Positions 14,128 through 49,813 of a stretch of DNA of 64,000 bases are shown one piece after another. The translations under genes and the position numbers were made by a program. Under the pieces are notes generated by a model that was given only the letters and a program-made list of their open reading frames with translations, was not told the DNA's origin and made no database searches. The stretch's first letter is position 1. Each line of letters starts with the position of its first letter. The DNA is from a virus. The DNA is taken from IMG/VR virus record IMGVR_UViG_3300050821_004383, positions 34,516 to 98,515 of that record; one strand, 5' to 3'.

Positions 14128-14868
14128 ATGAATTTACCCATCGTGACTAATGCCGAAAACGTCGTGAAGAAAGACCTGTCCTGGATTACACATCACCTCA
14201 TTTTAGTGGGCGTGCTGGTCGCAGTTTTGTTTCTCGGTATCTGGGAAGTCCAATCCCTTATCGAGAAACACGACGAGAAGAAAGCACAGCAAGCGAACAC
14301 CGCGCTGCAAGTGGTTGTTGACCAAGTAAAGAGATTGGAAGAACACCAAGCACAGAACGACGTAGCCATCGCGCAGCGCGAGGCCGCTCGTGATGCCCTC
14401 GACAAAGCACTTATCGCAACTATCAACGCTCGCGACAAAGCGCTCACCGACCAAATTCAAAAGAACGCCACACTCACAGCACAGCAAGCCGCTGCGCGAC
14501 TCTCGGAGCAATATAAGGCACAGCCGGGAGAAGTTACAGCAAGTGGCGACACCGTTATAGCGGACCTCCCTCTCGCTCGCTCCTTCGTAAACACGTTTGA
14601 CCAACTCAACGTCTGCACCGCTAATTATGTTGATGAACAAAAGCAACTGGCTGCGGAGCAAGCGCGTACCGCTGACTTGAAGACCCAGGTGTCCGACCGC
14701 GACAAAACCATCACAGGAAAGAACGAAGAACTCGTTAAGCAAAAAGCAAAGGACGACGAGGGCAAGAAGGTCGCTGTTGACAAAGAGAAGAAGAAGCACA
14801 AGTGGTACGCACTAGGCGGCATCATCATCATCGAAGCAGTTCGATTTTATCTTACGGGGAAACCATGA
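14128..14868 (+). CDS. Membrane-anchored coiled-coil protein (246 aa)
   Basis: Start chosen at MNLPIV, closer to the first membrane helix. One helix near residues 24-45 (LILVGVLVAVLFLGIWEV), then a long Ala/Gln/Lys coiled coil (50-140 and 175-220) and a second helix near the C-terminus (WYALGGIIIIEAVRFYL). The topology recalls an i-spanin or membrane-tethered virion/ejection protein. Its overlap with the A1-like gene suggests a role in DNA entry instead; neither is proven. Confidence 0.5.
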   Translation: MNLPIVTNAENVVKKDLSWITHHLILVGVLVAVLFLGIWEVQSLIEKHDEKKAQQANTALQVVVDQVKRLEEHQAQNDVAIAQREAARDALDKALIATINARDKALTDQIQKNATLTAQQAAARLSEQYKAQPGEVTASGDTVIADLPLARSFVNTFDQLNVCTANYVDEQKQLAAEQARTADLKTQVSDRDKTITGKNEELVKQKAKDDEGKKVAVDKEKKKHKWYALGGIIIIEAVRFYLTGKP

Positions 14869-16523
14869 ACGTACCGAAGCGCGATAGAAAATCAGTTGAA
14901 GAAGTCTCCGCTGTTTACGAAGCGACAGGTGGAAACATTCGCCAGACTGCGAAGAAGTTAGGCATCAGTCGCTCCTCGGTGCGCCGTATTTTGGAAGGCA
15001 CCGGGATAATGAAGAAGCCGTTAGTCGGCGGCACCAAGGGCGGCACAGAGACGCAGGTTCGACCTCTGCCCAAGAAGGGTGAAGTCAACCGCTACATTCT
15101 TACTTCCGCGCAGAATAATACACATGTTCACGCGGAACTGCTAGCGAACCTGAAAGCACTAGCGAACCACTACGGCGCTGCAATCATTGTGGGCACGTAC
15201 ACATACAATCAGAATCATTACGGTAAGCTGAGCGTAAAGCGCGGCAAAGATAAACCGGAAGAGACTCAGTTGTGGTACGACCCGGCCATCGTAGATTACA
15301 TCAAGGATTATCGTATTGAACTCGGTAAGGGTCTCGTGTGGTGCGGCGAATACAACGCGCTGCCGACGAACGTGAACCCGCTGGCCGGACTCGAATCGTA
15401 CACCGGACGCCAAAGCGCTATCTTCCCTCACGCCAAGCTGGCGATGCGCAGCATTGCAACGATGCAAAACGAGGGCGTGAAGCTGAACTACACCACAGGC
15501 ACCGTCACTCAGCGCAACTACATCCAGAAGCGCGAGGGTGTGATTGCAGAGTTTCATCACATCTATGGCGCACTGCTCGTGGAAGTGAACAGTGAAGGCA
15601 ATTGGTGGGTCCGCCAGTTGAACCAGGACGAGGGCACCGGGACGCTGCAAGATTTGAGCGTGCTCGTTAAGAACGGCAAGGTTATCGCAGAGGACGCTGG
15701 GGTAGAAGCTATCACATACGGCGACCTGCACGGTGTCTTTGCGGACCCGGATGTAATCAACGCGTCGCTGGACATGCGTTTTCACCTCGCGCCGAAGTAT
15801 CAGTTCTTGCACGACGTGATGGAAGGCGCGGCAGTCAATCCGCACCAACGCAAGTACCAGACGAACCACGAGAAGTTTCACACGTGGCTGCGCGGCTATC
15901 ACAAGCTGGACAACGAACTGGTGGACACCGCCAAGCTGTTGGAGCGCTTCGATGTCAACACGACTAAGACGGTCATTGTGGATTCGAATCACGACGACGC
16001 GTGGTTGAAGAAGTGGCTGCGCGAGTACGATTATCGTAAGGACCCTCCGAACACCGAGGTCTTTTTGAAGCTGCAAGCGTATCTGTATGGGCAGATTCGC
16101 AACGGAGTTACCGACGAGCAGTCTCGCGCACGCACCGCGAACCCGAAGATGGTACGCGACATCAACGTGCTTGAGTATGCTCTTCGAGAAGTCGGCGGCT
16201 ACAAGGCTAAGGCGAAGTTTCTCCTAGCCGACGAGTCATTCCTTACGTGCGGCAAGAAGATTGAGAACGGCATGCACGGTCACCTGGGGCCAGCCGGACG
16301 TTTCGGGACCCCGGAGAACTTGTCCAAGATGGCACGCAAGGCCAACACCGCGCACACGCACAGCACCGGAATCTGGAATGGACTTTACGTCGCGGGAACG
16401 AGTAGCAAGCTGCGCTGGGATTACACCAAGGGACCCAGCAACTGGACACACTCACATATAGTGACGTATCCGAACGGCAAGCGCACGATTGTGACAATCT
16501 ACAACGGCGCGTGGAGAGCATAA
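14865..16523 (+). CDS. T5 A1-like DNA transfer protein with N-terminal HTH (552 aa)
   Basis: The start at 14865 (MNVPKRD) overlaps the previous stop. Residues 10-50 are a helix-turn-helix (GGNIRQTAKKLGISRSSVRR). The remainder has the layout of a metallophosphoesterase-like fold, with VIVDSNHDDAWL near residue 370 and GMHGHLGPAGRFGTPENLSK, GHTHSTG-like (AHTHSTGIWNGLY) near the end. Length and the GMHGHLG block match the T5 pre-early A1 protein family as I recall it. In T5, A1 is needed for the second step of DNA transfer and host DNA breakdown. A role in take-over is therefore likely. Confidence 0.65.
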   Translation: MNVPKRDRKSVEEVSAVYEATGGNIRQTAKKLGISRSSVRRILEGTGIMKKPLVGGTKGGTETQVRPLPKKGEVNRYILTSAQNNTHVHAELLANLKALANHYGAAIIVGTYTYNQNHYGKLSVKRGKDKPEETQLWYDPAIVDYIKDYRIELGKGLVWCGEYNALPTNVNPLAGLESYTGRQSAIFPHAKLAMRSIATMQNEGVKLNYTTGTVTQRNYIQKREGVIAEFHHIYGALLVEVNSEGNWWVRQLNQDEGTGTLQDLSVLVKNGKVIAEDAGVEAITYGDLHGVFADPDVINASLDMRFHLAPKYQFLHDVMEGAAVNPHQRKYQTNHEKFHTWLRGYHKLDNELVDTAKLLERFDVNTTKTVIVDSNHDDAWLKKWLREYDYRKDPPNTEVFLKLQAYLYGQIRNGVTDEQSRARTANPKMVRDINVLEYALREVGGYKAKAKFLLADESFLTCGKKIENGMHGHLGPAGRFGTPENLSKMARKANTAHTHSTGIWNGLYVAGTSSKLRWDYTKGPSNWTHSHIVTYPNGKRTIVTIYNGAWRA

Positions 16524-22217: not shown

Positions 22218-22433
22218 ATGACTGAGTTCTACTTTGAAACAAGCGAATCAGACGGCACTTGTCGAGTTAACTTAACTCCCGGCTCCTACCCGCCGAAATT
22301 GTGCGGGAGAGAAGCGTGCGCTAAGGCTGACTTTCAGATGTTAGAAAGCGACGAGCGCGTTCACATCCCTGTTTGCAGAGAGCACGGGAAGAAGATTGCT
22401 GCATCAGGAACAACCGTGAGGTTTGAAGAGTGA
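22218..22433 (+). CDS. Zinc-finger-like small protein (71 aa)
   Basis: Starts immediately after the prim-pol stop; ATGGATAGTGGAGGAG provides the ribosome site. CGREAC, then a C-terminal CREHGKK segment. Coupled to the polymerase gene, hence possibly a replisome accessory. Confidence 0.5.
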   Translation: MTEFYFETSESDGTCRVNLTPGSYPPKLCGREACAKADFQMLESDERVHIPVCREHGKKIAASGTTVRFEE

Positions 22434-23650
22434 TTGAACTGCATTGCGACTTCGAATCACGCAGCCCGGTTTCTCCCGGGGACGTGGGATTGCATAACTA
22501 CATCTTCCATCCGGAGACGGAGCCGCTATTCCTCTGGTACAAAATAGGTGACGCGGGCTACCAGTGTTGGAACATCTGGGAGAGGGCAGGCTTCGTAGAG
22601 CGCGACTGGGAGGGCATGAGCGTCCCCCAAGATTTGGACGAATCGTTGCATGACCCGGATGTGATGCTCGTTGCCTTCAACAGCGCTTTTGAGCGCTACA
22701 TGTTCAAGAAGCTGGGATACGATATCCCGGCCAGTCGTTTCATAGACCCACAAGTCGGAGGGCGTTACCTCTCGCTCCCCGCCAGCCTTGACGTGCAGTG
22801 TCGCGTCATGGACCTACCTGCAAACCTCACCAAAGACGAACGCGGAGAAGAACTAATCAAGCTATTCTGCGAGAAAGTAATCGTTAAGAAGACTAAGAAA
22901 AATCCCGCCCGGGAGTATTACAACGATTGGACCACGCACCCTCGTGAGTGGCAGGAGTTTCTGAATTACGGCAGACAGGACGTTGTTGCGGAGGGAGAAC
23001 TACTTCGCAGAATGCGAATCTTGCGTGCGCTCCCCCTCCCGGAGTTTGAACAGAAGTTGTGGCTGCTTGACCAGACGATAAACGACCGAGGCATGCCTGT
23101 AGACCGCGTGTTCGTTGAGAAGATGTACCGACTGGCGGTACGCGCCAAGGAAGAAGCGAAGAAAAACTTCGAGAAGATGACAGGCGTTACAAACGCAAAT
23201 TCGCCCGCTCAGATTAAGAAGTGGGCAAAGACACAAGGCTATCCGTACGGCACGTTGAAGAAGGACACCGTCACGTCCGTGCTCAAGGACCCGGATATCA
23301 AGTTGACCGACACGTGTCGTGCAGCATTAAAGATGCGTGCGGAAGCGGCCAGCACAAGTTATCAAAAGCTGGGGAAGATATTAGAGTGTGTCTCCCCAGA
23401 CGGGAGGTTGCGCGGGCAATTTATTTTCTTGGGTAGTTCTCGCTGTGGGCGGTGGTCTGGTAACGCTGTACAACTTCATAATTTCCCGCGCCCTCTGGTT
23501 GTGGGAGGTTTTGACTTCGAAGACCAGAAGGTCGTGAGGGAAGCACGTGCGATGGTGTACGCGGAAGACTACGATGGCATCAAGGAAAAATACTTGAGTG
23601 TTCTTCTTGTTGTGAAAAGTCTGATTCGTACGGTGTTTGTCGCGCCATGA
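22430..23650 (+). CDS. DNA polymerase family A, N-terminal fragment (exonuclease plus start of polymerase domain, 406 aa)
   Basis: Residues 1-190 are a 3'-5' exonuclease: LHCDFESRS (Exo I), VAFNSAFERYMF (Exo II) and FLNYGRQDVVAEGELL (Exo III). The polymerase thumb and palm begin with LWLLDQTINDRGMPVDR and run to GQFIFLGSSRCGRWSGN and LVVKSLIRTVFVAP, then stop. In intact enzymes about ten residues follow before motif A. Here the rest is encoded from 24535, after an inserted HNH module. The two chains could reassemble, as in other phage-split polymerases. Splicing is the alternative. Confidence 0.85.
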   Translation: MIELHCDFESRSPVSPGDVGLHNYIFHPETEPLFLWYKIGDAGYQCWNIWERAGFVERDWEGMSVPQDLDESLHDPDVMLVAFNSAFERYMFKKLGYDIPASRFIDPQVGGRYLSLPASLDVQCRVMDLPANLTKDERGEELIKLFCEKVIVKKTKKNPAREYYNDWTTHPREWQEFLNYGRQDVVAEGELLRRMRILRALPLPEFEQKLWLLDQTINDRGMPVDRVFVEKMYRLAVRAKEEAKKNFEKMTGVTNANSPAQIKKWAKTQGYPYGTLKKDTVTSVLKDPDIKLTDTCRAALKMRAEAASTSYQKLGKILECVSPDGRLRGQFIFLGSSRCGRWSGNAVQLHNFPRPLVVGGFDFEDQKVVREARAMVYAEDYDGIKEKYLSVLLVVKSLIRTVFVAP

Positions 23651-23859
23651 TTACTCTAATTAGAACTCCAAAATGTGACTACCCGTCGTGCTCGTGGCAA
23701 GGTCTCGTTAAAGATTTGCTGCGGTGGCTTGATGTTGGGGGACCATATCGTTTGTGCCCGGAGCACTATAAATTAAAGTATTTTCAACGTCAACAAGAAC
23801 AGATGCAGGCTCAAAAGGATGAGTTTGACGCACTTGAAAAGGGAAAGTATGAGAAGTAA
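23647..23859 (+). CDS. Small zinc-finger-like protein in the polymerase insertion (70 aa)
   Basis: The ATG overlaps the polymerase-fragment TGA (ATGA). Cysteines CDYPSC and CPEH suggest a metal site; the C-terminal half is a Gln/Lys helix. Base composition is visibly more AT-rich than the flanking polymerase sequence. Part of the inserted module. Confidence 0.5.
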   Translation: MITLIRTPKCDYPSCSWQGLVKDLLRWLDVGGPYRLCPEHYKLKYFQRQQEQMQAQKDEFDALEKGKYEK

Positions 23860-24538
23860 ATACTACGTAGCTGGAACACATCATTCAACTGGCAGTTGTC
23901 TGTTGTTTTCCAAGGAAGAGGATAAAATTATCCGAGGAATGTATGAATCGAGTATACCAGTTCAAAACATTGCTCGAAAGTACGGAATTTGTTTGCCGAC
24001 TGTTTATGCTTCTGTTCGTCGTGCGGGCGGTCGTGTTCGTAAGAAAGGAGAAAGCGATAAGCGAAAAAGACTAACCCTTGAGCGTGCAAAAGAACAAATA
24101 CCTACAGCCTTAGCGGTGCGTCACGACAGCAAGCGCAGGCCGCAAGTGTTGGTAGCGTGCCCTCTTCAAACATCTCCCAGTTGTCAAGTACGAAAACCAA
24201 AGTGGCGCTACATAAACACGAAGATGCGTCAGACTACGGGGATTTGTCGAAGTTGCTCAGGTTTTCGCGGAGGACATGTTTCTAACGGCTACAGACGTGT
24301 TTATATAAACGGAAAGTCTGTGGCGGAACACCGCACAGTTATGGAAAGGATGCTAGGTCGAAAACTTCGTTTTTATGAGACAGTGCATCACAAAAACGGA
24401 GACGGGTTAGATAATAGGCCACGTAATCTTGAATTGTTTACGAGTCGCCACACAAAAGGCGCGAGACCACGAGATTTGGTAAAATACTTGAAAACAATCC
24501 CAGTAAGTTTGGGAGGATTGAAGGAGAAGCAGCGATGA
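23849..24538 (+). CDS. HNH homing endonuclease (229 aa)
   Basis: The ATG at 23849 follows AAAGGG. Residues 20-70 form a helix-turn-helix (FSKEEDKIIRGMYE ... VQNIARKYGICLPTVYAS), and the middle has a CQ...CRSC zinc element. The C-terminal AEHRTVMERMLGRKL then ETVHHKNGDGLDNRPRNLELF is a textbook HNH_3 motif. It sits precisely between two polymerase halves in an AT-richer segment, the signature of a mobile endonuclease gene that invaded just before motif A, the most conserved site. Confidence 0.9.
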   Translation: MRSKYYVAGTHHSTGSCLLFSKEEDKIIRGMYESSIPVQNIARKYGICLPTVYASVRRAGGRVRKKGESDKRKRLTLERAKEQIPTALAVRHDSKRRPQVLVACPLQTSPSCQVRKPKWRYINTKMRQTTGICRSCSGFRGGHVSNGYRRVYINGKSVAEHRTVMERMLGRKLRFYETVHHKNGDGLDNRPRNLELFTSRHTKGARPRDLVKYLKTIPVSLGGLKEKQR

Positions 24539-25645
24539 GTACAAGATTTAACGTCTGCGACCTTTAACGCGATTGAAACCAGAGTAGGAGCATGGCTGGC
24601 GGGCTGCACCGACTTGATGAAGGTCTTCGAGCCGTACACCGACCAGTTTGGCGTCTACCAGAAGAACGGACGGGACCCGTATCTTGCGTTCGCGTGTAAA
24701 ATGTGGGCGCTCGATTACGCTCCTCTCTACGCCGATTACAAGGGCAAGAATGGCAAGGACCGCAAGGGCGACGCGAAGCGTAAACGCCAAATTGCAAAGC
24801 CGGGAGTCCTCGGCGCTATTTATCGTCTCGCTGGCGGCGGATGGGGATTCGCACCTCCACGCAAGGACCACGGCGACGATTGCAACGCTAAGGAAGTTGG
24901 AGCCAACGGCAAAAAGATTGGCGTGAAGCACTGCCACTGCGAAGAGGTTCGCGACCGCATCAAGACCGGGATGTGGGGATACGCTGATAACATGGGCATC
25001 GAGATGTCGCAGGAGCAGGCGAACGAAGTCGTGCGCATCTTCCGAGACTCGTATCCGGAAATTTGCGACCCTCAGCGCGGTATTTGGAAGCAGCTAGAGG
25101 TTGCGGTCGCGGACGTGATGCACCCGGACCACCCGGCGACCGTGCGCACGATTGGACCGAACGGCTGCGTCGTAATCGACCGTCTTAACATCGAGGGCCG
25201 CAAGCCGATGATGCGCATGCGCCTGCCCTCGGGACGCTACCTACACTATTTGGATGCAAGACTCGAACCCACGCTGATGCCGTGGAAGGGAGAAGACGAC
25301 GATGGAAACGAAATTGAAGTTTACCGTGACAGTCTCATTTACGCCGGAACAAATCAAAAGACTAAGCAGTGGGATATCTGGGTTTCCACCCACGGAGGGA
25401 AGCTCTTTGAAAATCTCGTCCAAGGAATTGCTCGCGATATTCTCGCTCATTGCCTTCTCCGATTCGAGGCCCTTGAAATGCCTCTCGTCGGACACGTTCA
25501 CGACGAAGGTATTGCGCTGGTGGAAAACGACCTGCTCTCGCCTACGCACCATGACATGGTCGAGATAATGAGCACGCCGATTGCGGAGTACCCCGGGTTG
25601 TTGCTCGGCGCGGACGGGTACGAAGATTTGTACTATCACAAGTGA
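24535..25645 (+). CDS. DNA polymerase family A, C-terminal fragment, needs +1 shift (24535-24564 joined to 24566-25645)
   Basis: AAGGAG precedes the ATG at 24535, which overlaps the HNH stop (ATGA). The first frame reads MSTRFNVCD then CTT TAA. After skipping one base it continues NAIETRVGAWLAGC, which is motif A with its catalytic Asp in the first frame. Downstream: motif B RKRQIAKPGVLGAIYRLAGG and motif C GHVHDEGIALVE. Starting only at 24614 would lose the catalytic Asp. Either the extra C is a sequence error, or the gene uses programmed +1 frameshifting, or it is decayed. All other motifs are intact, arguing against decay. Confidence 0.8.
24559..24568 (+). promoter_or_regulatory. Putative +1 recoding site GAC-CTT-TAA-C
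   Basis: The zero-frame CTT is followed by the stop TAA and then C. Slipping of the CTT-bound tRNA to TTT gives the AAC frame. The release-factor-2 gene prfB uses the same logic at CTT-TGA-C. Unlike prfB, no Shine-Dalgarno-like stimulator is seen three bases upstream. Confidence 0.4.
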
Positions 25646-45319: not shown

Positions 45320-46219
45320 ATGAACTTTAAACAGCAGGCAGAAGTATTCATGACGGAGATTGCCAGCCGCAAGAGCGACCCCGTTCGCTCGAATACCCTG
45401 CACGTTTACCGTTCCCTTCTGGACGCCCGCATCTTACCCGCCATCGGTGGGGTAGAAATGGCGGACGTTAACAACAAGACCGCCAGGATGCTCGTGGGCC
45501 GTCTAACCGAGGCCCAACTGAGTCCCGCCACAATCAACTTGGCGGTTGCCTTGATGAAGCAGGTCGTCAAATCAGCCGTGGACGACGAAGGGGACCCGTT
45601 ATACCCTCGCACTTGGAATAGTCGTTTTATAGATGCTCCCCGGGTGGTCCCGGCGAAGCAGAAGACCCCTATTGCCCCGGTGGAGGCCCTTTCCAGGGCC
45701 GTAGGGACGACTTCCGGGGAAGTTAAGGCATTGGTAGCCCTTCTGGCTGGAACGGGCCTCAGAATTGGGGAAGCGCTGGCCTTGATGGTCGGACCAGACG
45801 ACGGAAAGAACTCATTCTGGATTCCAGAATCCGGAACGCTGATTATCCGCACCACGATGGTGGACGGGGTTATCCAGTTGGACACAAAGACCAAAGCAGG
45901 CACTCGTATCGTGGATTTAGACCCTAATCTCGCGTGGCTCCTCCGCGCGACATTCAGGGACCGCGAGTCCGGGGTGTTGTTTACAGCCTCGGAGAGTACA
46001 TTCCGCCGCTGCATGAAGGAGCACGGCATTTCTGGCTTCCACTCTATGCGCCGTTTTCGAATCACCTACCTGCAAAACAGTAGCGTACCAAATACTTTGG
46101 TGAAGTTTTGGGCGGGACACGCTGCTGGTGATATGACGGAGCGTTATACGAAATTTGGCGCTCAAATCGAAGAGAGAAAGAACTGGTCTGAAAAGGCCGG
46201 ATTGGGGTTTAGCCTATGA
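45320..46219 (+). CDS. int: Tyrosine recombinase / integrase (299 aa)
   Basis: The N-terminal core-binding domain (residues 1-105) is followed by the catalytic domain: GTGLRIGEAL (first Arg), FHSMRRFRITYL (H-x-x-R) and WAGHAAGDMTERYTK with the final His and the Tyr nucleophile. All catalytic residues are present, so it should be active. No attachment site can be recognised, as the host sequence is unknown. Suggests a temperate or integrating life style, or genome dimer resolution. Confidence 0.9.
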   Translation: MNFKQQAEVFMTEIASRKSDPVRSNTLHVYRSLLDARILPAIGGVEMADVNNKTARMLVGRLTEAQLSPATINLAVALMKQVVKSAVDDEGDPLYPRTWNSRFIDAPRVVPAKQKTPIAPVEALSRAVGTTSGEVKALVALLAGTGLRIGEALALMVGPDDGKNSFWIPESGTLIIRTTMVDGVIQLDTKTKAGTRIVDLDPNLAWLLRATFRDRESGVLFTASESTFRRCMKEHGISGFHSMRRFRITYLQNSSVPNTLVKFWAGHAAGDMTERYTKFGAQIEERKNWSEKAGLGFSL

Positions 46220-46392: not shown

Positions 46393-46787
46393 GGTTACCG
46401 CGCTGGCTACGACACTTCGGTGCAAAGTTCCTCGCGCTCCACGAAGAAGAATCGGGCGGCATGATGCACGATTACGCAAACGGTCAGTGGAATGAACTAA
46501 TGACCTGGACCGACGATAAGGGGCAAGCAGAGGCGTTAAGCATCGTGGACAGCATCTTCTCTGGCGCTAGGGATGCGATTTACATCGTTTGTATTCGAGT
46601 CGGACCCAGGAGGGGCTACTTCGTAGTTTACGATTCTAACTTGACGTATTATCACCGTTCGTTTTGGACGGGGATTTACGAGCCGGAAGAAGCATTCGAT
46701 GACGTTAGAGCATACTGTCGGCAAGTTGCAGACAAGATGGGATTCAGGAGGCCAGATGAAGCGACTGACAATCAATATCCCGGGTGA
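46389..46787 (+). CDS. Hypothetical protein (132 aa)
   Basis: Basic N-terminus (MRLPRWLRHFGAKFLALHEE), then an alpha/beta fold with IYIVCIRVGPRRGYFVVYDS. Overlaps the start of the PRPP-synthetase-like gene. Not recognised. Confidence 0.5.
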   Translation: MRLPRWLRHFGAKFLALHEEESGGMMHDYANGQWNELMTWTDDKGQAEALSIVDSIFSGARDAIYIVCIRVGPRRGYFVVYDSNLTYYHRSFWTGIYEPEEAFDDVRAYCRQVADKMGFRRPDEATDNQYPG

Positions 46788-47577
46788 CCGTGGAAAGTTA
46801 TACGAAGTCATTCACTACCCGGCTGGGGAGATTCAGACCCGTCTGACTCCGGAAGGCATTCGTGCATGCGCTGACAAAGAGGAGTATGTCATTGTCGCGA
46901 ATCCGATTCCCGATATCATCGAACTAGCGCAGTTGAAGGATGCGCTGGATGCGGAGTCAACCGTATTTTACAGAAAGCTGGAACTGCCGTATCTCCCCTA
47001 CGCTCGGGCTGACCGCCGTTTTGTAAAAGGTGATTCGTTCGGACTGGCAGTCTTCGCGAGACTGATTAACTCGCTCCACTTTGACACCGTTACCACGTTT
47101 GATGTTCACTCGGCCTGTGCGGAGGTGCACATCAACAATCTTCTCAATCTCGACCCGATTCATCACTACGACCAGCTTACCGACTGCATCAAGTACCTCG
47201 GTGGACCAAACGGCGTCGTGTTAATAGCACCAGACAAGGGCGCGAAGAGACGATACGACTTGGAGAGTTACGGCTTGCAGGTCTTAGAGGGCGAGAAGGT
47301 CCGCGACCCGAAGACCGGGAAGTTGTCCGGATTCAAGATTGACAAGCGGGTTGCAGAGTACCCGTCCGGCCTTATCGTGGATGATATCTGCGACGGCGGC
47401 GGGACCTTCATCGGCCTGGGACAGGAGATTCGCAAACTGAATCCAAAGATGAACCTGGGGCTATACGTCTCCCACGGCATCTTCTCTCAAGGCACCGAAA
47501 AGCTGTATGAAATTTTCAACGCGGTGTTTATTTCGGACTTTTCGTTTATCGGGAATTATCCGTTCAAGAAAATTTAG
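46756..47577 (+). CDS. PRPP-synthetase-like enzyme, candidate ADP-ribose pyrophosphate synthetase (273 aa)
   Basis: Start at MKRLTI, after AGGAGG. LPYLPYARADRRFVKGDSF is the conserved ATP-binding region of ribose-phosphate pyrophosphokinases, FDVHSA the metal site, and LIVDDICDGGGTF the ribose-5-phosphate/PRPP loop. Slightly shorter than bacterial Prs (about 315). It forms a unit with the NAMPT-like gene 0.7 kb downstream. In the phage NARP1 pathway, enzymes annotated as Prs and Nampt actually make ADPR-pyrophosphate and then NAD+. Whether this one uses ribose-5-phosphate or ADP-ribose cannot be told here. Confidence 0.85.
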   Translation: MKRLTINIPGDRGKLYEVIHYPAGEIQTRLTPEGIRACADKEEYVIVANPIPDIIELAQLKDALDAESTVFYRKLELPYLPYARADRRFVKGDSFGLAVFARLINSLHFDTVTTFDVHSACAEVHINNLLNLDPIHHYDQLTDCIKYLGGPNGVVLIAPDKGAKRRYDLESYGLQVLEGEKVRDPKTGKLSGFKIDKRVAEYPSGLIVDDICDGGGTFIGLGQEIRKLNPKMNLGLYVSHGIFSQGTEKLYEIFNAVFISDFSFIGNYPFKKI

Positions 47578-47578
47578 A

Positions 47579-47725
47579 ATGGGATTAACGAGAAAACGAA
47601 ATCGAATCAGCGGTGGATGCCCGGTCGGAATCGAGACCTGGACCGATATTTGGTTGTTGACAAACTTCCCCACTTTGTGGCATATTGCACATGGGATGGA
47701 ATACGAGATAAAGGAGAAATCATGA
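47579..47725 (+). CDS. Possible small basic protein (48 aa)
   Basis: Open frame from MGLTRKRNRISGGCPVGIET to an ATGA overlap with the next gene, but no ribosome site, and a promoter runs through it. May be leader sequence only. Confidence 0.3.
   Translation: MGLTRKRNRISGGCPVGIETWTDIWLLTNFPTLWHIAHGMEYEIKEKS
47657..47686 (+). promoter_or_regulatory. Promoter before the 47722 gene
   Basis: TTGACA (47657-47662), 18-bp spacer, CATATT (47681-47686). Would drive the 47722, 47946 and NAMPT-like genes. Confidence 0.6.
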
Positions 47726-47949
47726 GCAAACTTAGCAAGACAGCAGCAGCCTCGATGCGCGGAGGACCAGTAGAGAAAAAGACTGACCCGTTCGACACGA
47801 ACGAGAAGAAAATCCAGGAGCTACGCAACCAGCGTGCAAACAAACTCGCCGTCAACCGATATGATTTCATCGACGCTTTGATTGAGGAGTACGATAAAAT
47901 GACGCTCGTCGCACTGGAAGCACTCAAGTCAAGACCGGAGGCAGTATGA
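47722..47949 (+). CDS. Helical protein (75 aa)
   Basis: AAAGGAG before the ATG at 47722. Begins MSKLSKTAAASMRGGPVEKK, then a charged helix (KKIQELRNQRANKLAVNR). Not recognised. Confidence 0.5.
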   Translation: MSKLSKTAAASMRGGPVEKKTDPFDTNEKKIQELRNQRANKLAVNRYDFIDALIEEYDKMTLVALEALKSRPEAV

Positions 47950-48278
47950 ACTTCGTTGAAAATTTCAAAGACGTGGAAGACATCGTGAGAAACTACGGCG
48001 GCACCTCTCAAGAGGACTTGGAAGGCGCTACGATTCATCTCGCGTGGTACGGCTACGGCTCGTACAGCGGCGATAGTTTCGTTCTCTACGAGAAGGGCGG
48101 CAAGCTGTTCGAGGTGAACGGGTCACACTGCTCTTGCTACGGCCTGGAAGGCCAGTGGGAACCGGAAGAAACTTCCCTGGCGGCGCTCGCAATGCGCGAC
48201 CTGTCCAGCGCCGAATACGAAGGGTCCTCGGACGCGCAGAAAATTTTGACGGCATTCATTAAGGGGAGGGCTTCATGA
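47946..48278 (+). CDS. Conserved phage protein, unknown role (110 aa)
   Basis: Contains SYSGDSFVLYEKGGKLFEVN then GSHCSCYGLEGQWEPEET, a pattern I recognise from uncharacterised phage proteins. ATGA overlaps on both sides tie it to the NAMPT-like gene. Confidence 0.6.
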   Translation: MNFVENFKDVEDIVRNYGGTSQEDLEGATIHLAWYGYGSYSGDSFVLYEKGGKLFEVNGSHCSCYGLEGQWEPEETSLAALAMRDLSSAEYEGSSDAQKILTAFIKGRAS

Positions 48279-49813
48279 CGGAAAATTTTGTGGACGATAA
48301 CTACGTGAGCGACCCGAACAGTCCAATCTTCATGATTGACTTCTACAAGTTCGGGCACGTGGACCAGTACCCGAAGGGCATCAAAAGAATCTGGGTGAAC
48401 TTCACTCCCCGTTCGACGCGCGTGGAAGGCGAGAAGGGTGTCATCTTTTTCGGGTTGCAACGGTTCATCAAGAAGGTCTTAATTGACCAGTTCAACGAGA
48501 ACTTCTTCGAGCGTCCTTGGTTTATGGTGGAGCAAGACTATAAACTCGTGATGAAGAAGACTCTCGGCGTGGACGCTCGCACAGACCACATCGAACAGTT
48601 GCACGACCACGGCAAGCTGCCGCTCGATATTTACGCGCTACCGGAAGGCACCTACGTTCCGCTCGGAGTCCCCGCGATGGTCATCGTGAACAACCAGGAT
48701 TGGGCGTTCTGGCTCCCGAATTACATTGAGACCATGTGCTCCAACAATCTCTGGCACGCGTGCACCTCCGCGAGCACCGCGCACCGTTACCGCCGTCTCT
48801 TCATTCAAAAGGCAATCGAGGCCGGGGAGACCGACCTCAGCTTCATCGATTGGCAGGGTCACGACTTTTCCTACCGTGGGCTGTCCGGCTACGAATCGGC
48901 GGCGCTCTCAGGCATGGGGCATCTGCTCTCGTTCTCCGGTACCGACACGCTCCCAGCGATTCTGGAAACGAACCACTATTACGACGCGGACCTTTCGGTC
49001 GGCGGCTCCGTTCCCGCGACGGAGCACAGCGTTATGTGCGCCGGGTCTAAGGAGTCGGAACAGGAGACGTTCCGCCGCCTGATTGAGGACGTTTACCCCA
49101 CCGGGGTCGTTAGCATCGTTTCCGATACCTGGGACCTTTGGAAGGTGCTGACGGAGATTATCCCCAACTTGAAGGATAAGATTCTCGCCCGTCAACCCGC
49201 TGGCTATCTGCCCGCGAAGGTTGTCATCCGCCCTGACTCCGGAGACCCGGTCAAGATTCTTACGGGCGACGATACAGCGGAGCGCTTCACCCCCGCGTGG
49301 TACGGCGCACTTTTGCTTCTTGCGAGGGCCTTGGGTACCGACGAGGATGGCACCGGAAAATTGAACCGTCACATAACAAAGGGCGGACTCATTTACGGTG
49401 ACAGCATCACGGTAGACCGCGCGGAACAAATTCTGACTCGCGCTATCCGCCTCGGTTACTCGCCGTATAACTTCGTCTTCGGTATCGGGTCTTACACGTA
49501 TCAGTATGTGACCCGCGACACTTACAACTTTGCATTCAAAGCGACCGCAATCGAAACAGAGAACGGCGTGCAGGCTATTTTCAAAGAGCCTGTCACCGCT
49601 GGTGAGTTCAGTAAGAAGTCGCACCGTGGAATCCCTGCCGTTATGACTGAATCAGATGGAACATTCGCGGTACTACAAACGGAGGACCCGCGTTGGCTCG
49701 ACCATCCGGACTCCGCGTTCCGCAAGGTCTTCAATGGCTCACTCCAGGTGGATGAACCGTTCGGAGTGATTCGAGACCGAGTCCGTGCGCGTGACTTCAA
49801 GGACACGCTTTGA
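48275..49813 (+). CDS. Nicotinamide phosphoribosyltransferase-like enzyme (512 aa)
   Basis: Full-length NAMPT family: FMIDFYKFGHVDQYPKG at the start, then FSYRGLSGYESAALSGMGHL, FSGTDTLPAILE, VPATEHSVM (catalytic His), VSIVSDTWDLWKVL, VVIRPDSGDP (phosphoribose site) and FGIGSYTYQYVTRDTYNFAF. Known reaction: nicotinamide plus PRPP to NMN; in NARP1 the relative instead joins nicotinamide to ADPR-pyrophosphate, making NAD+ directly. Together with 46756-47577 it could restore NAD+ destroyed by host defence. No NMN adenylyltransferase gene was recognised in the window, which favours the one-step version. Confidence 0.9.
   Translation: MTENFVDDNYVSDPNSPIFMIDFYKFGHVDQYPKGIKRIWVNFTPRSTRVEGEKGVIFFGLQRFIKKVLIDQFNENFFERPWFMVEQDYKLVMKKTLGVDARTDHIEQLHDHGKLPLDIYALPEGTYVPLGVPAMVIVNNQDWAFWLPNYIETMCSNNLWHACTSASTAHRYRRLFIQKAIEAGETDLSFIDWQGHDFSYRGLSGYESAALSGMGHLLSFSGTDTLPAILETNHYYDADLSVGGSVPATEHSVMCAGSKESEQETFRRLIEDVYPTGVVSIVSDTWDLWKVLTEIIPNLKDKILARQPAGYLPAKVVIRPDSGDPVKILTGDDTAERFTPAWYGALLLLARALGTDEDGTGKLNRHITKGGLIYGDSITVDRAEQILTRAIRLGYSPYNFVFGIGSYTYQYVTRDTYNFAFKATAIETENGVQAIFKEPVTAGEFSKKSHRGIPAVMTESDGTFAVLQTEDPRWLDHPDSAFRKVFNGSLQVDEPFGVIRDRVRARDFKDTL

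Follow-up and report, generated by a model that had tools for sequence, protein, structure and literature searches.

Two neighbouring genes in a virus genome, one resembling PRPP synthetases and the other resembling Nampt, raise the question of which route to NAD+ they encode. Such enzymes could make NMN, which a host adenylyltransferase would complete, or they could belong to a NARP1 system, which rebuilds NAD+ from ADP-ribose. The genes lie in a stretch of 64,000 nucleotides (the window), which represents bases 34516–98515 of a 98,515-bp virus record. All coordinates below are those of the window. Both genes are on the same strand, 697 nt apart, and the features of the locus are as follows:

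46756–47577, + strand: adps, predicted ADP-ribose pyrophosphate (ADPR-PP) synthetase with a PRPP-synthetase fold, 273 aa, open reading frame intact
47657–47686, + strand: putative sigma-70-type promoter (TTGACA-18-CATATT, extended -10 TG), preceding s1, s2 and namat
47722–47949, + strand: s1, a 75-aa open reading frame with AAAGGAG ahead of its ATG and a stop that overlaps the start of s2
47946–48278, + strand: s2, 110 aa, a member of the uncharacterised family phrog_8792, with a stop that overlaps the start of namat
48275–49813, + strand: namat, predicted nicotinamide ADP-ribose transferase with a Nampt fold, 512 aa, open reading frame intact

The first-pass annotation had described two enzymes 0.7 kb apart with intact catalytic motifs. 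Both reading frames are found at these positions, and the catalytic residues are present.

Residue-level identity of the two enzymes

The product of the downstream gene has strong matches to Pfam family PF04095 (9e-31), NF006629 (460 bits) and phrog_448 (526 bits). Its likely substrate can be judged from the Namat of Bacillus phage SPbetaL1, which was solved with NAD+ by Lan et al. and in which an adenine clamp confers specificity for ADPR-PP (PMC12774641). Two elements form this clamp: Arg40, which lies in a loop, and the helix motif GSX-Phi-X-Phi-X-Phi-TRD, in which residues 392 and 396 are aromatic (PMC12774641). The window protein was aligned with the proteins of SPbetaL1, ICP1, Wigglewiggle, KVP40, Xanthomonas and human, together with 80 relatives from IMG/VR, in an alignment that reproduced the residue numbering of PMC12774641.

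Eighteen of the 20 residues that contact NAD+ in SPbetaL1 Namat are identical in the window protein. The other two changes are conservative: A362 is replaced by S, the majority state among the relatives, and F392 by Y. In the alignment, the clamp residues R49, Y407, Y411, T413 and D415 correspond to R40, F392, Y396, T398 and D400 of SPbetaL1. Arg49 supplies the stacking residue (Arg, Lys or Tyr) of the selectivity-clamp loop, which is longer than in Nampts, and the SCH motif GSYTYQYVTRD (residues 405–415) agrees with the published Namat consensus. True Nampts do not carry this motif, having GGGLLQQLDRD in KVP40, GGALLQKVDRD in Xanthomonas (Xcc) and GGGLLQKLTRD in human. The Nampt-like core is kept, with R319, D224, H251 and D321 equivalent to Arg306, Asp215, His245 and Asp308 of SPbetaL1.

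Phylogeny and similarity searches point in the same direction. The window protein falls inside the Namat clade (SH-aLRT 100), apart from the three Nampts, and phmmer gives 411 bits to Namat crystal structures (PDB 9W5W) versus about 158–170 bits to human and Xanthomonas Nampt. The gene at 48275–49813 is therefore best regarded as a Namat, predicted to synthesise NAD+ from ADPR-PP and nicotinamide, and its protein in turn supports the published Namat signature.

For the partner enzyme, the literature searched contained no published Adps signature, and distinguishing marks were consequently derived here. The window protein matches phrog_619 (phage ‘ribose-phosphate pyrophosphokinase’) at 213 bits, but reaches only 73 bits with the NCBI PRPP-synthetase model TIGR01251, under its cut-off of 113. 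The proven SPbetaL1 Adps likewise falls under this cut-off. When eight canonical Prs were aligned with 81 Adps-like proteins, SPbetaL1 Adps and ICP1 NrsA among them, 14 columns proved conserved within each set yet different between the two. The window protein agrees with the Adps set at 12 of these columns and with the Prs set at none. Three marks stand out: S119, where canonical Prs have A; G214 in the 5'-phosphate loop, where Prs have T; and F218, where Prs have L, I or M. Several of the other columns show a state that human or archaeal Prs also have, and by themselves these are not diagnostic.

The phosphate loop of the window protein reads DDICDGGGTF in place of the DDMxDTxGTL of Prs, and the change at G214 may create the space that the AMP moiety of ADP-ribose needs. 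Residues for ATP binding and pyrophosphate transfer are kept (RxDR, DxH, K181/R183 and DD209-210). An AlphaFold model (pLDDT 90.8) finds PRPP synthetases as all of its best PDB matches. In the phylogeny, the protein belongs to an Adps clade that contains the characterised Adps and NrsA (support 98) and excludes canonical and archaeal Prs. The gene at 46756–47577 thus probably encodes an Adps, predicted to pyrophosphorylate ADP-ribose, and the analysis provides candidate sequence marks that separate Adps from PRPP synthetase. In the alignments with characterised Adps and Namat on one side and true Prs and Nampt on the other, both proteins of the window side with Adps and Namat.

The two genes also keep company elsewhere. 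An Adps homologue is found near Namat in 73 of the 80 IMG/VR relatives and is directly adjacent in 36. Gene order varies, with Adps lying downstream in a sister group (L003, L004 and L006–L008). In both the Adps tree and the Namat tree, the closest relatives of the window proteins are L002 and L005, followed by the L003–L008 group. Such agreement is the expectation for two genes that travel together.

A tyrosine recombinase (45320–46219) lies upstream of the pair and is kept near Namat in L002, L003, L004, L006 and L007, which suggests that recombinase and NARP1 form a conserved accessory block. Two further features of the window lie at a distance from the locus. A DNA polymerase (22430–25645) is present in two pieces, matching positions 671–1003 and 1031–1225 of phrog_17, and the reading frame of an HNH endonuclease (23819–24538) sits between them. 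The gene could be split and carry a homing endonuclease, or it could be interrupted by an intron that escapes Rfam; an Rfam scan of the window gave zero matches. A 573-aa protein (14802–16523) matches phrog_1745, ‘DNA transfer protein’, at 508 bits and has an N-terminal helix-turn-helix.

Probable counter-defence and the competing routes

The Namat signature and clamp, the Adps-like columns, the placement of both proteins in their clades and the paired loci together uphold the first-pass proposal of a NARP1-type pair. Because these residue-level signatures and phylogenies agree, NARP1 is preferred over classical PRPP/NMN salvage. The pair is very probably a NARP1 system that rebuilds NAD+ as a counter-defence, with its reactions and role predicted from characterised homologues.

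During infection, a host NADase (TIR, SIR2 or SEFIR) would split NAD+ into ADP-ribose and nicotinamide. Adps, using ATP, would then transfer pyrophosphate onto ADP-ribose, giving ADPR-PP, and Namat would join ADPR-PP to nicotinamide. These two steps would restore NAD+ with no need for an NMN adenylyltransferase, and infection could proceed. Both the reactions and their benefit are extrapolated from the systems of SPbetaL1, ICP1 and DyoEdafos (PMC12774641, PMC11559045, PMC13232231). A dual role is possible, since characterised Namat can also use PRPP in vitro, producing NMN about half as fast as human Nampt does (PMC12774641).

The same enzymes could instead serve mainly as auxiliary metabolism, raising the NAD+ pool to the benefit of phage replication at large rather than against NADase immunity in particular; they might, for instance, recycle ADP-ribose that phage or host enzymes produce. 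The chemistry would be identical, and Adps–Namat pairs also occur on bacterial chromosomes, where their role is not counter-defence. However, the homologous ICP1 system is required against Nezha, under which it raises NAD+, and it carries a fitness cost without Nezha (PMC11559045). These findings speak against a general benefit and favour counter-defence, and a mainly metabolic role appears rather unlikely.

Genes with the Namat signature are carried by many Bacteroidota genomes, including those of Aquimarina, Kordia, Tenacibaculum and Cellulophaga. Across the 80 loci inspected (L175–L254), the SCH motif is always present, an Adps homologue lies within 5 kb in 36, and an NrtR/Nudix-like gene is nearby in 24. 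Eight bacterial genomes with a chromosomal Namat were tested, and each encodes two Prs homologues, a housekeeping Prs that scores about 350 bits and a weaker one. An apparent counter-example comes from a record named ‘Acinetobacter phage MD-2021a’ (L086, CAKLQF020000015.1), where a gene annotated as NMNAT/ADP-ribose pyrophosphatase beside a Namat-like gene proved to be NrtR (NF050029, 471 bits). The flanking genes make this record look bacterial. In it, the Adps–Namat pair precedes NrtR, a repressor that responds to ADP-ribose; this arrangement fits a bacterial NARP1 induced by ADPR.

Classical salvage would have a PRPP synthetase and a Nampt produce NMN, leaving the last step to NAD+ to a host NMN adenylyltransferase; it is very unlikely here. 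Both folds would fit it, and Namat keeps activity on PRPP in vitro (PMC12774641). The first-pass remark that no NMN adenylyltransferase was recognised holds across the whole 98,515-bp record, possibly itself a fragment, in which neither CTP_transf_like (NMNAT, PF01467) nor NUDIX matches were found (controls matched in 14 of 14 genomes). Similarly, no NMN adenylyltransferase was found in seven sister records, which are possibly fragments. This absence is weak evidence, because hosts encode adenylyltransferases of their own, and it is not decisive against salvage. The NMN route is rejected instead on the clamp residues and clade membership: the window protein carries an adenine-clamp motif that is missing from true Nampts, none of the 14 separating columns holds a Prs-type residue, the NCBI PRPP-synthetase cut-off is missed, and the trees place the two proteins with Adps and Namat.

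The segment between the two genes

The roughly 0.7-kb segment that separates the two genes is missing from the pair in their viral relatives. In the closest syntenic phage, L002, whose Namat is 73% identical, the order of integrase, a 132-aa reading frame, adps, namat and a 63-aa reading frame is collinear with the window, but adps and namat overlap and there are no genes between them. In none of the 80 related viral loci, L002 included, do s1 and s2 lie inside the Adps–Namat pair.

The first-pass annotation had described two conserved small genes between the enzymes as a novel part of the system. Two reading frames are indeed there, but searches of phages, IMG/VR and sister genomes showed that only s2 belongs to a family, and that this family is not found at the pair. 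The claim of two conserved genes is consequently rejected, and a part for them in the system is not supported, as s2 travels independently. No relatives of s1 were found in phages or IMG/VR, while searches with s2 gave 99 relatives from IMG/VR and 114 from phage records. Among 80 s2 loci that were read, Namat lies within about 4 kb in only three, and s2 lies between Adps and Namat in none. In the sister phage L007, a 57% identical s2 lies about 17 kb away from Namat. A Namat or Nampt homologue is present in only 8 of 44 s2-bearing viruses, which is not above the background of 22–33% reported for NadV-like genes in medium and jumbo phages (PMC9503650).

The s2 family is widespread, occurring in T4-like and phiKZ-like phages (PhiPA3 gp034) and in Bacillus and Campylobacter phages, and is sometimes misnamed ‘integrase’. 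Its members share an invariant HCSCYGLEGQW, and the structure of s2 is predicted with confidence (pLDDT 93.6). A fold search of the PDB with s2 gave no match (best E 0.7), and neither s1 nor s2 matched a Pfam family above cut-off.

The putative promoter at 47657–47686 has 10 of 12 consensus matches, the best in the region. Its exact pattern occurs once in the window versus 0.04 times expected, a figure to be read in the knowledge that the pattern was picked after the site was seen. A generic scan of the region gives six sites versus 3.4 expected, so an independent promoter, which the first-pass annotation had also listed as novel, is only possible. If real, it would partly uncouple the two enzymes, a point against the NARP1 reading. 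The segment, including the putative promoter, s1 and s2, is probably co-transcribed with namat.

Since the segment is absent from L002 and the 80 loci, s1 has no relatives and s2 is unlinked to NARP1, it is best seen as a lineage-specific insertion; loss in the sisters is less likely. It is dispensable for the pathway as known. Very little credence can be given to the segment as a functional NARP1 accessory, which its position inside the pair, the stop/start overlaps from s1 through s2 to namat and the precedent of RyDEP in the DyoEdafos operon (PMC13232231) would suggest, but which its absence from the pair in 80 of 80 viral loci, including the collinear L002, the separate location of s2 in L007 and the rarity of Namat or Nampt among s2-bearing viruses all oppose. 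Under such an accessory role there is an equally faint chance that s2 would target signals derived from NAD+, or counter the same defences, which would be the first function for its family.

Relationship to known NARP1 systems

The locus opens no new kind of system, and the pair is ordinary for NARP1. The SPbetaL1 system (PDB 9W5W, 9W5X; PMC12774641) encodes both enzymes, in the order seen here. Its Namat is 47% identical to that of the window, with NAD+ contacts that are identical or conservative, while its Adps is only about 30% identical and has the phosphate loop DDLSSFGGTF where the window protein has DDICDGGGTF. The SPbetaL1 genes are directly adjacent, whereas those of the window are 0.7 kb apart with s1, s2 and the putative promoter between them.

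NrsAB of the Vibrio phage ICP1 restores NAD+ and defeats Nezha (PMC11559045). Gene order is again the same, the proteins are 39% (NrsA) and 45% (NrsB) identical over the matched parts, and the SCH motif of NrsB, GSYTYQYVTRD, is identical to that of the window Namat. Unlike the window, ICP1 has no genes of the s1 or s2 kind between nrsA and nrsB. The host of ICP1 and the defence it targets (Nezha) are known.

KVP40, also a Vibrio phage, follows the classical NMN route with a NadV-type Nampt. It has the Nampt fold and catalytic core in common with the window protein, but its Nampt is only 29% identical and lacks the adenine clamp (GGGLLQQLDRD), and the phage has no Adps homologue.

The NARP1 of mycobacteriophage DyoEdafos (PMC13232231) resembles the window in having a gene inserted inside the operon. 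However, that insert, RyDEP, is a RyR-domain glycosidase, while s1 and s2 match no Pfam family; a search for the RyR domain (PF02026) gave zero matches here, as it did for the positive control. To these characterised systems the window adds a NARP1 pair with residue-level support, from a virus clade far from the cultured phages.
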